Of a DNA stretch of 25,850 bases, positions 20,405 through 23,604 are shown one piece after another. The position numbers and the translations under genes are program-made. Under the pieces are notes generated by a model, which did no database searches, was not told the origin of the DNA, and saw nothing but the letters and a program-made list of their open reading frames with translations. Position 1 is the first letter of the stretch; each line of letters starts with the position of its first letter. The stretch is taken from the IMG/VR virus record IMGVR_UViG_3300032334_000254, positions 1 through 25,850 of that record. One strand, given 5' to 3'. This DNA comes from a virus.

Positions 20405-20739
20405 CAGCCACCTACAACCTTGTATGCCCACAGGCTACAACATTTACATTTGCATTCCGTCCACAAACTGATGGAACAAACTGGAATCTCACTGGCTACA
20501 CAGCAACTATGACTGTACGCCCGTTCGCAGGTTCTACTACAACCACGCTACTTGCTACTACAGCAAACGGCAGAATTAGTATTAACACAGCGACTTCAGT
20601 TGTGACAGTTACATTTAGTGCAGCGCTGACTAACATCAAAGCAGAGACTTATGCCTATGACTTTGTCTTCTACACAGGTGGTACAACAATTAGATTGTTA
20701 GAAGGTAAGTTCCTAGTACCGATTGGAGTAACCGTTTAA
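20401..20739 (+). CDS. Beta-rich tail/fibre-associated protein, 112 aa
   Basis: Starts with the rare TTG at 20401, overlapping the previous stop (TTGA). The sequence is all-beta in look ([38 protein letters not shown]), similar to the N-terminal adaptor domains of baseplate or fibre proteins. It is directly upstream of the collagen-like fibre gene (TAATG), so it may anchor that fibre. Inference. Confidence 0.7.
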
Positions 20740-21929
20740 TGGCTGAAACAATCATCATCATTGAGTCTGCTCAACCGCAGACATCCGTAGTTTTCTCAGC
20801 AGATCAAGGACCGCAAGGTATTCAAGGACCAACAGGACCAACAGGTCCTACCGGCGCTACTGGTACCACTGGCCCAACTGGTCCTATCGGACCGACAGGT
20901 GCGACAGGAGCCACAGGTTCAACTGGCGCTACAGGCGCCACCGGAGCGACAGGAGCAACAGGTGCGACAGGAGCGACTGGATCTACAGGTAATACTGGAA
21001 GCACAGGCCCAACGGGAGCAACAGGGCCAACTGGACCTCAAGGAGCTACTGGCGCAACTGGATCAACTGGTAGTACCGGAGCCACAGGACCTACAGGAGC
21101 GACCGGTGCAACCGGAGCAACAGGACCTACGGGAGCAACTGGCTCTACAGGAAGCACAGGACCAACAGGTGCTACGGGAAGTACAGGCCCTACAGGCCCA
21201 ACAGGATTAACCGGACCAACTGGTCCGACAGGTGCCACAGGAGCCACTGGTGCGACTGGTTCTACAGGACCAGGATATTCAGGAGTAACTTCTACTTCAA
21301 CTATTACTATTGGTACTGGTCTTAAGACATTTACTTTAGTTGGAAGTTATGCTGGTGCGTTTATCACTGGCGACAGAGTTAGAGCAATTCACTCTGATAC
21401 TCCGACCTACTATATGGAAGGTCCTGCCAACTACGTTGGTGGTGGAACCCTTATCATCACTGTTGATACAGCAGTAGGTAGCGGATTACACAACGCTTGG
21501 AACTTCAGCATTGCAGGCTTGATTGGACCAACAGGTCCAACTGGTCCTACTGGCGCTACAGGAGCGACAGGAAATACGGGCGACACAGGCCCTACAGGGC
21601 CTACGGGAGCCGCAAGCACGGTGCCTGGTCCAACAGGACCTACCGGTGCTACAGGCGCCACAGGCGCCACTGGTGCCTCTGGAGCCACAGGTCCGACAGG
21701 GCCAACTGGTGCAACAGGTAGCGCAGGCGCTACAGGTGCAACGGGTGCTACAGGTTCTCAAGGCCCTACCGGACCGACTGGTGCTACTGGTAGCCAAGGT
21801 CCAACTGGTCCTACTGGAGCAACGGGTTCTGCTGGAGCAACGGGAGCCACTGGACCTACTGGTCCAACAGGTGCAACTGGTGCAGATGCTACGGCGTTGC
21901 CTGGCATCTTGATGCTTGGCGGTATGTAG
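20739..21929 (+). CDS. Collagen-like fibre protein, 396 aa
   Basis: Likely a trimeric, exposed fibre. Residues 1-23 form an N-terminal anchor, 24-179 are 52 unbroken Gly-X-Y triplets, 180-262 form a globular beta insert ([20 protein letters not shown]...), and 263-383 are 39 more triplets with one break (STVP at 293-296); the end is [11 protein letters not shown]. Nearly all Y positions are Thr (47 of 52 in the first block). Pro is confined to X and no Lys is present, so classical hydroxylysine chemistry cannot apply, but O-linked sugars on Thr could. Synonymous codons vary widely across triplets. Two glycosyltransferase genes follow. Confidence 0.88.
20808..21275 (+). repeat. Collagen-type 9-nt coding repeat, block 1
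   Basis: 52 consecutive Gly-X-Thr-type triplets (GPT, GAT, GST). The DNA copies use mixed Gly (GGA, GGT, GGC, GGG) and Thr (ACA, ACT, ACC, ACG) codons, which lowers recombination between copies. Confidence 0.9.
21525..21887 (+). repeat. Collagen-type 9-nt coding repeat, block 2
   Basis: 39 Gly-X-Y triplets, split 10 + 29 by a four-residue break. Variants with Y other than Thr (GSA, GSQ, GAS, GAD) are commoner than in block 1. Confidence 0.88.
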
Positions 21930-21940
21930 ACTTATACCTT

Positions 21941-22519
21941 ATGAAGGTAAATGAGTATTTTGACCGAGTTGTGGTGATTAACTTAGACCGACGAACAGAT
22001 CGTATGGAGAAGTTAGACGCTCAACTCAAAGAGTTGGGGATTGAGTACGAACGATTCTCTGCAGTAGACGCTCAGGCGTTAGGCATAGAACCGATACAAG
22101 CGTGCAGACAGTCACACCTAAAGGTGTTAGAAGAATCAACTGGTAGAACTTTGATACTAGAAGATGACGCAATCTTTATGGAAGACTTCAACAATAGGTT
22201 TGCTCAGTTCATAGAACTGCTACCTGATGATTGGGATATCTTTTACTTAGGCGCAGTACTGCTTAACAGTCTGCCTTGTAACGAGATGATGGTACGAGCG
22301 ATGGACACTTCATCGCTACACGCTTACTGTATCAATCCAGCTTTCAAAGAGAAAGCGCTGGCGCAGGGTAGAGAATACCCAGAGCATATTGATGTAGCCT
22401 ATAGGTTGCTTCATAGAGAATGCAAAGCCTATGCTGCTAGACCACCGCTAGCCAAGCAATACCCAAGTTATTCAGACTTGATGTTAAAAGACGTTGACTA
22501 TATGAGTTGGTACAAATGA
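21941..22519 (+). CDS. GT25-family-like glycosyltransferase
   Basis: Resembles glycosyltransferase family 25, which holds bacterial LOS galactosyltransferases and animal collagen galactosyltransferases. The start is VVVINLDRRTDRMEKL (about residues 10-25), followed by ACRQSHLKVLEES (54-66) and LILEDDAIF (71-79), whose acidic EDD is the expected nucleotide-sugar/metal site, and PEHIDVAYRLL near 145-160. At 192 aa it is shorter than many relatives. It lies 11 nt after the collagen-like gene and its TGA overlaps the GT2 start (ATGA). The acceptor is unknown; the neighbouring fibre is the natural candidate. Confidence 0.75.
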   Translation: MKVNEYFDRVVVINLDRRTDRMEKLDAQLKELGIEYERFSAVDAQALGIEPIQACRQSHLKVLEESTGRTLILEDDAIFMEDFNNRFAQFIELLPDDWDIFYLGAVLLNSLPCNEMMVRAMDTSSLHAYCINPAFKEKALAQGREYPEHIDVAYRLLHRECKAYAARPPLAKQYPSYSDLMLKDVDYMSWYK

Positions 22520-23604
22520 AGGTAGCCGTATACACAATCTGTAAGAATGAGGAAAAGTATGTCCAGCGCTGGTATGAATCTACCAGAGATGCCGACTACC
22601 ATATCCTCACAGATACAGGATCAACAGACGGAACAGTCGAACTCGCTAGAAGTCTTGGTATCACTGTTAACGAAATTGTACTCAAACCCTTTAGGTTTGA
22701 TGACGCGAGAAATGCATCGCTGATATCAATACCCACAGATGTTGATTACTGCATAGCGTTAGACGTAGATGAAGTATGTGCACCAGGCTGGCGCGAAGCG
22801 TTACAGGTAGCATACGACAAAGGTATCGATAGACCAACCTATCGTCGTATCGAAGCATTCAATGAAGACGGTTCACCGCTTACAGAGTTTAATGGCTTTA
22901 AGGTACACCGTCGCTTTGGTATCAGATGGCACTACCCGATTCACGAGGTACTGGACTGGTATTCAACAGAGCCAGAAAAGTCTGAGTACATCGAAGGCTT
23001 TGAGATTCACCATCACCAGAACAAAGAAACATCTAGAGCGCAGTATCTACCGCTACTAGAGATGGCAGTTAAAGAAAAGCCAGACGCTAGAAACTTGTAC
23101 TACCTAGGACGAGAACTGTCCTACTACAAGGAGTATGAGCGAAGCAAAGAGATGCTATTGAAGTATCTTGAAGTATCTATCTTTAAGCAGGAACGCAGTT
23201 CAGCTTGTCGCATCCTAGGTATCGTCGATCCTAAGAATGCAGAAGAGTGGTTCACCCGTGCTACAGAAGAATGGGAAAGCCGTGAGTCTTTCTTAGCACT
23301 GGCTAACTATTACTACCTCCGTAAGGAGTGGGATGAGTGCCACCTTGTGGCAAAGACTGCACTGCAGTTCGACAAGAAGCCTATGGAGTTTCTAGTAGAA
23401 GCCTGGGCGTGGGGCCATATGGCAGAAGACTTAGTTGCAGTAAGTGCGTGGCAACTAGGAGATTACAAGACAGCACTACATCACGGCCTCAAGGCGTTAG
23501 CACTAGCGCCTGATAATGAAAGACTTAAGAGCAATGTTCAATTCTATGAAAGTAAGGTAAGCGATGCCAACATTCAGTCAGATGACGTCAGAGGTACAGA
23601 GTAA
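22516..23604 (+). CDS. GT2 glycosyltransferase with TPR-like C-terminus
   Basis: N-terminal GT-A domain: AVYTICKNEEKYVQRWYEST (4-23), DTGSTDGT (33-40, nucleotide-sugar site) and the DxD motif DVD at 83-85 in ALDVDEV. Residues from about 190 on form TPR-like helical repeats (ARNLYYLGRELSYYKEYERS; ALANYYYLRKEWDECHLVAK). The fusion resembles SPBc2 YokD/GT2-TPR enzymes that bind extended substrates. The start is the ATG at 22516, inside the upstream stop. The end overlaps the next gene by up to 41 nt. Confidence 0.85.
   Translation: MKVAVYTICKNEEKYVQRWYESTRDADYHILTDTGSTDGTVELARSLGITVNEIVLKPFRFDDARNASLISIPTDVDYCIALDVDEVCAPGWREALQVAYDKGIDRPTYRRIEAFNEDGSPLTEFNGFKVHRRFGIRWHYPIHEVLDWYSTEPEKSEYIEGFEIHHHQNKETSRAQYLPLLEMAVKEKPDARNLYYLGRELSYYKEYERSKEMLLKYLEVSIFKQERSSACRILGIVDPKNAEEWFTRATEEWESRESFLALANYYYLRKEWDECHLVAKTALQFDKKPMEFLVEAWAWGHMAEDLVAVSAWQLGDYKTALHHGLKALALAPDNERLKSNVQFYESKVSDANIQSDDVRGTE

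Follow-up and report, generated by a model that had tools for sequence, protein, structure and literature searches.

What purpose is served by two glycosyltransferase genes lying directly behind a collagen-like fibre gene in a phage genome? The question is raised by a viral DNA record of 25,850 bases (IMG/VR record IMGVR_UViG_3300032334_000254, positions 1 to 25,850; this whole stretch is called the window below), in which capsid, terminase, portal and adaptor genes are all present. A first-pass annotation had proposed that the cluster glycosylates its own fibre, had emphasised the GT25-like enzyme and had taken the acceptor from gene proximity alone. Our analysis supports the first of these proposals and shifts the emphasis: the genes at positions 20401-23604 are, in our judgement, quite likely a cassette that makes a collagen virion fibre carrying O-glycans, with the GT2 enzyme most likely starting O-glycans on Gly-X-Thr and the GT25 enzyme probably extending them. 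Proximity as the sole argument has been superseded by co-inheritance of the genes and by the association of this GT2 with Thr-rich collagens in other phages.

The fibre and its two neighbouring enzymes

The cassette genes and the collagen blocks of the fibre are located as follows.

20401..20739, plus strand: 112-residue protein, phrog_1084, weakly matching 'L-shaped tail fiber protein assembly'
20739..21929, plus strand: collagen-like fibre, 396 residues (open reading frame and Pfam Collagen)
20808..21266, plus strand: collagen block 1, 51 triplets, fibre residues 24-176
21516..21614, plus strand: collagen block 2, 11 triplets, fibre residues 260-292
21627..21887, plus strand: collagen block 3, 29 triplets, fibre residues 297-383
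21941..22519, plus strand: GT25-type glycosyltransferase, 192 residues (PF01755, structural model), proposed glycan-extending enzyme
22516..23604, plus strand: GT2 glycosyltransferase with C-terminal TPR helices, 362 residues, proposed enzyme for the first sugar on Thr

Counting confirmed the 91 Gly-X-Y triplets of the first-pass annotation (51 + 11 + 29, the first two blocks being set apart by some 83 non-collagen residues) and the lack of Lys within them; one Lys is present elsewhere in the fibre. Thr had been said to occupy almost every Y position. The bias is real, Thr being found at Y in 79 triplets and at X only once, and the actual share is 87%. Position X is mostly taken by Ala (39) or Pro (32), together 71 of 91, and only 2 of the 182 X/Y positions carry a charged residue. 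The Pfam Collagen match (E 3e-41) indicates that the repeat did not arise by chance, and Thr at Y is encoded by a mixture of codons (ACA 38, ACT 25, ACC 8, ACG 8), which argues against a single freshly duplicated DNA unit; both a chance repeat and a fresh DNA duplication were thus rejected. The fibre, which is matched by 39 PHROG families, therefore has the long Gly-X-Y tract and the Pfam Collagen match of the collagen-like class, and its triple helix is predicted. When block 1 was compared between the window and a close relative (L007), all four changes in Y codons were synonymous, while X codons showed two synonymous changes and four amino-acid changes. In the nine other pairs among five close fibres, amino-acid changes numbered 0-1 at Y and 3-7 at X, so that across these fibres Y-codon changes are mostly synonymous and X-codon changes mostly nonsynonymous.

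That a GT25-like gene and then a GT2 gene follow the fibre directly, with the latter ending at 23604, was borne out, PF01755 and PF00535 both scoring above their cut-offs. The listed GT2 reading frame opens with TTG at 22507; we adopted the ATG at 22516, since the first start of this frame in three relatives (L007-L009) corresponds to it. TPR_2 also exceeded its cut-off (28.1 bits over the full length, cut-off 27, with no individual stretch reaching significance by itself), and phrog_13126 was matched over residues 1-351. The GT-A domain has an intact DXD motif, and D83-x-D85-E86 is kept in all 42 aligned GT2 sequences. In the structural model (predicted local distance difference test score, pLDDT, 91.3) this domain is followed by serial TPR helices at residues 174-350. 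Among solved structures, the GT2 profile retrieved GmaR (E 5.7e-9) and SunS (E 6.5e-9) first and TPR proteins after them, and a Foldseek search with the model returned SunS (E 2.5e-17) and ThuS (E 4.8e-16), the next enzyme having an E-value of 1.3e-8. The fold match extends over the GT-A domain and much of the TPR part (VIA-align with SunS: Z 22.7, 256 residues, 2.5 Å), at 13-17% identity in structural alignments with SunS and ThuS. A GT-A domain with DXD, a C-terminal TPR part and a SunS/ThuS-like fold are all found in this protein, and by its predicted fold it matches best a GT2-TPR polypeptide glycosyltransferase of the SgtA/SunS type. GmaR transfers O-GlcNAc onto flagellin, i.e. onto a protein acceptor, and the acceptor residue of SunS and ThuS is Cys. 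In one relative (L039:8001-9078) the GT2 frame is split into two open reading frames and the 96-residue protein gene at the upstream border of the cassette is shortened, representing a decayed or misassembled copy.

The GT25 protein scored 42.7 bits against PF01755 (cut-off 24), the match covering residues 10-46 only, and its LEDD motif is invariant in all 26 aligned GT25 sequences. Its model (pLDDT 86.2) has human COLGALT1 and mimivirus R655 as the nearest solved structures (COLGALT1: TMq 0.72, E 1.1e-11). The family fold and the acidic motif are therefore present; membership of the COLGALT group, with its Lys/hydroxylysine acceptor, does not fit a proposed acceptor with 0 Lys in 91 triplets. 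To our knowledge few GT25 enzymes have solved structures, and if so, the structural ranking says little about the acceptor. NCBIfam searches at E 0.01 gave no name for the GT2 or the GT25 protein of the window, and a Pfam scan of 13 window proteins named no lysyl hydroxylase.

Inheritance of the cassette in related phages

To follow the cassette through related genomes, its borders and a capsid gene serving as a survey anchor independent of the glycosyltransferases were used.

17736..18677, plus strand: major capsid protein
20114..20404, plus strand: 96-residue protein, phrog_27452, upstream cassette border
23564..24466, plus strand: SU10-adaptor-like protein, phrog_7578, overlapping the GT2 gene, downstream cassette border

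Related loci were gathered with GT2 (36), with GT25 (24, two of them shared) and with the capsid protein (best 80 of 552 relatives), and 138 were examined. The recurrent order is 96-residue gene, 112-residue gene, collagen, GT25 where present, GT2 and adaptor; the order of fibre, GT25 and GT2 that the first-pass annotation had proposed to look for thus recurs. Both borders were found in 90 of the 138 loci, which were merged into 51 distinct contigs. Collagen and GT2 genes occur together in 50 of these and neither occurs in the remaining one. While GT2 is present in every one of the 50 cassettes, GT25 was found in 25, a share that is, if anything, too high, because some contigs were reached through the GT25 search. 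The set reached through the capsid protein alone gave the same picture: after 34 of the 80 loci had been dropped as incomplete, the remaining 46 came down to 44 when distinct adaptor sequences were counted; collagen and GT2 without GT25 are present in 23 of these, all three genes in 20 and none in one. Collagen and GT2 were accordingly found together in 43 of 44, and GT25 in 20 of 43. Across the 50 fibres the Thr fraction at Y was 0.75-0.95 (median 0.85), and any Lys within triplets was seen in two. The 112-residue protein was present in 49 of the 50 cassettes and was not found at loci lacking the cassette, while relatives of the 96-residue protein occur at such loci as well. The fibre, the 112-residue protein and GT2 behave as one unit.

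The counterpart is provided by the clade of phage E7. Among named phages, the window capsid protein is nearest to those of OX376641 and OX376640 (46.5%), the latter being LanE43-AprE7 (phage E7), a cultured phage of 'Ca. Planktophila' (PMC10202952). In all of the nearest 80 E7-clade loci (of at least 595 relatives; near-identical contigs unmerged) the 96-residue gene leads directly to the adaptor, and no relatives of collagen, GT2 or GT25 were found in the available stretch of these loci. In E7 itself no cassette was found in the 36,751 of 39,112 bases looked at. Glycosyltransferases are reported in E7 by its authors (PMC10202952), yet no cassette relatives were found there, and the reported enzymes are therefore not close relatives of the window GT25 and GT2. 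According to the same source, WhiB is exclusive to Actinobacteriota (PMC10202952). It was detected in 22 of 22 long window-clade contigs tested, a set outside which the window itself lies; from this, the window is probably part of an actinophage genome.

The GT25 gene differs from its neighbours in how it is inherited. Between the window and L007, DNA identity is 94% at positions 20091-21242, and downstream of 22517, a point adjoining the GT2 start, it is 93.5%; the two GT25 proteins are only about 50% identical. Judged from these sequences, the divergent GT25 amid DNA of about 94% identity suggests exchange between at least some relatives, and together with its absence from half of the cassettes it points to an interchangeable second step.

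The genes are tightly packed. The fibre and GT25 genes are separated by 11 bases, GT25 and GT2 overlap by 4 bases and GT2 and the adaptor gene by 41 bases, which points to one transcript with coupled translation across the cassette. A phage-encoded glycosyltransferase adjoining virion genes is the defining feature of mycobacteriophage-type virion glycosylation, and the same arrangement is seen here, with the enzymes packed between fibre and adaptor. In some relatives, genes lying between the fibre and the glycosyltransferases resemble on visual inspection genes for Gly-rich or other tail-type proteins or for endonucleases; one of them is Gly_rich_2, and no further glycosylation enzymes were recognised there by eye.

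Several observations accompany these comparisons. The 112-residue protein (phrog_1084) tracks the collagen gene and may be a fibre assembly factor or anchor. The one contig without the cassette (L114:10001-14883) combines a window-like capsid gene (83%) with an adaptor nearer that of E7, and probably represents a natural exchange of the fibre module. An endonuclease VII-type gene lies between the adaptor and a second fibre (24466-24900); it was found at the same spot in L018, L020, L025 and L050 and was undetected in others, a mobile-gene pattern. A tRNA search of the window gave none.

Threonine-rich collagens and GT2 in other phages

If GT2 acts on Thr of the collagen, its relatives might be expected beside other Thr-rich collagens. 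Two pattern scans of IMG/VR, with 120 matches listed for each, looked for seven consecutive Gly-X-Thr triplets or for eight triplets with no Thr at Y. With loci matching both patterns counted once, 233 loci were obtained and sorted by Thr fraction before the glycosyltransferase search, the cut-offs being set after the fractions had been viewed: 84 Thr-rich (at least 0.6), 80 Thr-poor (at most 0.25), 21 Ser-rich and 33 intermediate, with 15 dropped for want of a 12-triplet tract.

A profile of the window-clade GT2 (A1) matched within the locus at E<1e-40 in 12 of 84 Thr-rich and 2 of 33 intermediate loci, and in none of the 80 Thr-poor or 21 Ser-rich ones; at E<1e-8 the Thr-rich count rose to 15 and the other classes were unchanged. 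All 14 strong matches share the strand of their collagen gene and 13 of them lie downstream of it, at distances of 4 to 4,783 bases, and the 13 outside the window clade are 33-45% identical to the window GT2. Over whole records (83 Thr-rich, two of the 84 loci sharing one record; 3.2 and 3.4 million bases searched, a similar amount) matches at E<1e-70 were found in 17 of 83 Thr-rich and 0 of 80 Thr-poor records (Fisher p 6e-6), and without the window clade in 16 of 82 (p 1.4e-5). At E<=1e-8 the counts were 22 of 83 against 4 of 80 (p 2e-4). Generic PF00535, searched in the first 50 records per class at E 0.001, was found in 21 of 50 Thr-rich and 11 of 50 Thr-poor records (above cut-off, 18 and 11). 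This kind of GT2 is thus statistically tied to Thr-rich collagen in the sampled phages. The GT25 profile was met at three collagen loci only (one of the window clade, and one intermediate and one Ser-rich, both weak), and GT25 is without a general tie to Thr-rich collagen. The share of charged residues at X/Y positions was 1.8% for the 12 Thr-rich collagens whose locus has a strong GT2 match, 4.8% for the remaining 72 Thr-rich collagens and 19.7% for the 80 Thr-poor ones. Two of the 17 strong Thr-rich records carry TGA codons inside the matched GT2 frame (the records of L307 and L257, G106 and G023, with two and one, respectively), indicative of a decayed end or a recoded stop.

The reverse search started from two remote GT2 lineages, with near-identical contigs unmerged and collagen genes sought within 6 kb. 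For the L316 type (34% identical to the window GT2; best 80 of 139), a collagen gene was found within that distance in 76 of 80 loci, always upstream. Where at least 3 kb of upstream sequence was available it was present in 45 of 45, with Thr at Y of 0.67-0.89, and the four loci lacking it have less than 1.6 kb upstream each. For the L257 type (36%), collagen was found in 25 of 57 loci overall and in 21 of 29 with at least 3 kb upstream (Thr at Y 0.42-0.87). One enzyme of the cassette is found near Thr-rich collagen in more than 100 other sequences. Six of the 60 phage records with a GT2 match were opened for context among named phages; in phage DSL-LC01, two Thr-rich collagen genes (0.70 and 0.65) lie upstream of a GT2 with 46% identity. 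An annotated tryptophan halogenase gene belongs to the same stretch (L459:1535-8077), all on one strand and with one hypothetical gene between, and further modification of the fibre by its product is possible.

Among bacterial GT2 relatives, a collagen-like gene of at least 10 triplets lies within 6 kb on either strand in 52 of 77 loci, a count that comes with no background rate, and 39 of 77 have Thr at half or more of Y positions. In many Mesorhizobium loci the collagen gene is about 5 kb from the GT2-TPR gene and on the opposite strand, and in L653, L655, L670 and other loci of this genus the nearby collagen-like genes have Thr at nearly all Y positions. In two loci (L492:5322-7142 and L496:6230-8050) the GT2 is part of a 606-residue frame with an N-terminal part that by eye is sugar-transferase-like, away from collagen.

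A proposed glycosylation route and its alternatives

By domain plan and published description, the window cassette most likely works like the SgtA-BclA3 system of C. difficile. SgtA has 358 residues with a GT-A domain and C-terminal TPR, like the window GT2, and its gene lies beside that of the Gly-Pro-Thr collagen bclA3; in vitro it adds beta-O-GlcNAc to Thr, also Ser, of BclA3 collagen peptides (PMC7157674). The systems differ in that BclA3 belongs to a bacterial spore surface and not to a virion, in that sgtA lies upstream of bclA3 while the window GT2 gene is downstream of the fibre, and in that no GT25 partner is described in the available part of the source (PMC7157674). SunS, the best fold match together with ThuS, is, according to its title, of prophage origin; these two are S-glycosyltransferases of small peptides (glycosins).

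We infer catalysis, acceptor residue, sugar, order of action and effect on stability along the following lines. The fibre would be made as Gly-X-Thr chains, the TPR tail of the GT2 enzyme from the same gene cluster would hold the repeat, and the GT-A domain would transfer a sugar, GlcNAc or another hexose taken from nucleotide sugars of the host, to Thr at Y. Where present, GT25 would add the next sugar and in this way set the outer one. Besides coating the fibre, the glycans would stabilise a triple helix that is nearly uncharged and for which no source of hydroxyproline is known. Scarce charged residues leave the window fibre without charge as an alternative stabiliser, and glycosylated Thr may take the place of hydroxyproline. 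In cuticle collagen of Riftia, galactosylated or glycosylated Thr is reported to contribute to stability, and a 1996 title cited there names glycosylated Thr and not hydroxyproline as predominant at the stabilising positions (PMC10141479, PMC11766948); this is an animal collagen, and its enzymes are unnamed in the available part of the sources. Collagen-like phage tail proteins are also described from E. coli O157:H7 (EPclA); recombinant EPclA was unglycosylated, and its stability has been attributed to Pro and charged residues and perhaps to trimerisation through a separate domain (PMC3368898).

Several results weigh against this interpretation. The similarity to the S-glycosyltransferases SunS and ThuS leaves the linkage unsettled by fold. 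Gain or loss of the cassette between clades may represent few evolutionary events, and co-inheritance alone is therefore no proof of function. The X/Y substitution counts are small and their pairs non-independent, and Y codons of L008 and L009 show one change of each kind. In the survey, 66 of 83 Thr-rich records (completeness not given) have no GT2 match at E<1e-70, and of the four Thr-poor records matching at E 1e-8, three match by the glycosyltransferase domain only and one by both parts. Eight of the 29 L257-type loci with at least 3 kb upstream are without collagen within 6 kb, their GT2s adjoining Gly-rich or other tail-type genes or sitting in another context. In the jumbo phages PaBG, Lu11, HRDY3 and Alexandra the GT2s (29-35%) are neighboured by genes for DNA ligase and head protease, and no collagen lies within 6 kb; in gut phage MT838491 (GT2 36.5%) the adjacent collagen has Thr in only 0.37 of Y positions. 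An exclusive coupling of this GT2 family to collagen was rejected on account of such remote relatives. Glycosyltransferases without any collagen-like gene, which the first-pass annotation had named as evidence against its proposal, thus do occur in these eight loci and four jumbo phages, and none was found in the window clade.

These same GT2s beside non-collagen tail-type genes would be accounted for if both enzymes glycosylated another virion protein, such as the second fibre or the capsid, with collagen as a mere neighbour. Glycans on capsid and tail-tube proteins are indeed reported for mycobacteriophages (cited in PMC12619734). We consider this unlikely, since no window-clade GT2 occurs without collagen in 50 of 50 distinct contigs and a preference for Thr-rich over Thr-poor collagen would be unexpected were collagen irrelevant. 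Modification of host surface sugars (blocking superinfection) or of phage DNA is the usual reading of phage glycosyltransferases, including those of E7 and F5, for which host-surface modification against superinfection or phage DNA modification was suggested (PMC10202952), and in Pfam GT25 is listed as a family of lipopolysaccharide biosynthesis. For the GT2 fold and its TPR tail, however, peptide glycosyltransferases are the best match, the genes lie amid virion genes and are absent together with the fibre, and modification of DNA or envelope predicts no tie to Thr in collagen, which makes this explanation improbable.

The idea that GT25 acts as the principal enzyme on collagen, as in animals, with GT2 only extending the glycan, draws on the nearness of its fold to COLGALT1 and R655, and GT25-related enzymes, mimivirus L230 and animal COLGALT1, do glycosylate viral or animal collagen. 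However, these act on hydroxylysine while the window triplets are without Lys, half of the cassettes retain collagen and GT2 without GT25, and the peptide-glycosyltransferase fold is that of GT2. GT25 as the initiating enzyme was rejected on these grounds, the emphasis that the first-pass annotation placed on it is not supported, and we see little chance that this division of labour applies. Finally, the association could reflect shared phage lineages or habitats and not function: a capsid relative (43-48%) is common to the window clade and four positive loci (L331, L247, L226 and L316), and the survey statistics carry no tree-based correction. In 7 of the 11 strong Thr-rich loci outside the window clade, however, no match to seven window virion proteins was found (loci partial), and WhiB, present throughout the tested window-clade contigs, was detected in 4 of 7 L316-type and 0 of 6 L257-type records, so that hosts probably differ. 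Common descent or habitat is the explanation that we find hardest to credit.

The repeated gene partnership is real. No phage glycosyltransferase acting on phage collagen was described in the titles and beginnings of abstracts of the open-licence literature that was covered. A more far-reaching picture, which we put forward tentatively and with some doubt, is that numerous phages from unrelated lineages hold the triple helix of a virion collagen together with sugars, in place of hydroxyproline or charge, set by GT2-TPR enzymes on Thr at nearly every Y position, that the Gly-Ala-Thr-rich fibre would stay unfolded without them, and that GT25 sets the outer sugar, giving glycan coats that vary like O-antigen. 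Collagen-like tracts recur in phage tail proteins, and folding without proline hydroxylation has been discussed for a charge- and Pro-rich example (PMC3368898). If our interpretation of the cassette is true, a Thr-rich collagen with its own peptide glycosyltransferase would represent a second answer to the problem of fold stability, and would offer a compact way, with two or three genes, of making glycosylated collagen in bacteria. Enzymes of this kind labelled 'beta-1,4-glycosyltransferase' look, in these clades, like virion-modifying enzymes and not like enzymes of host surface or DNA. If exchange of GT25 alters the outer glycan, it could also affect how the virion is recognised.

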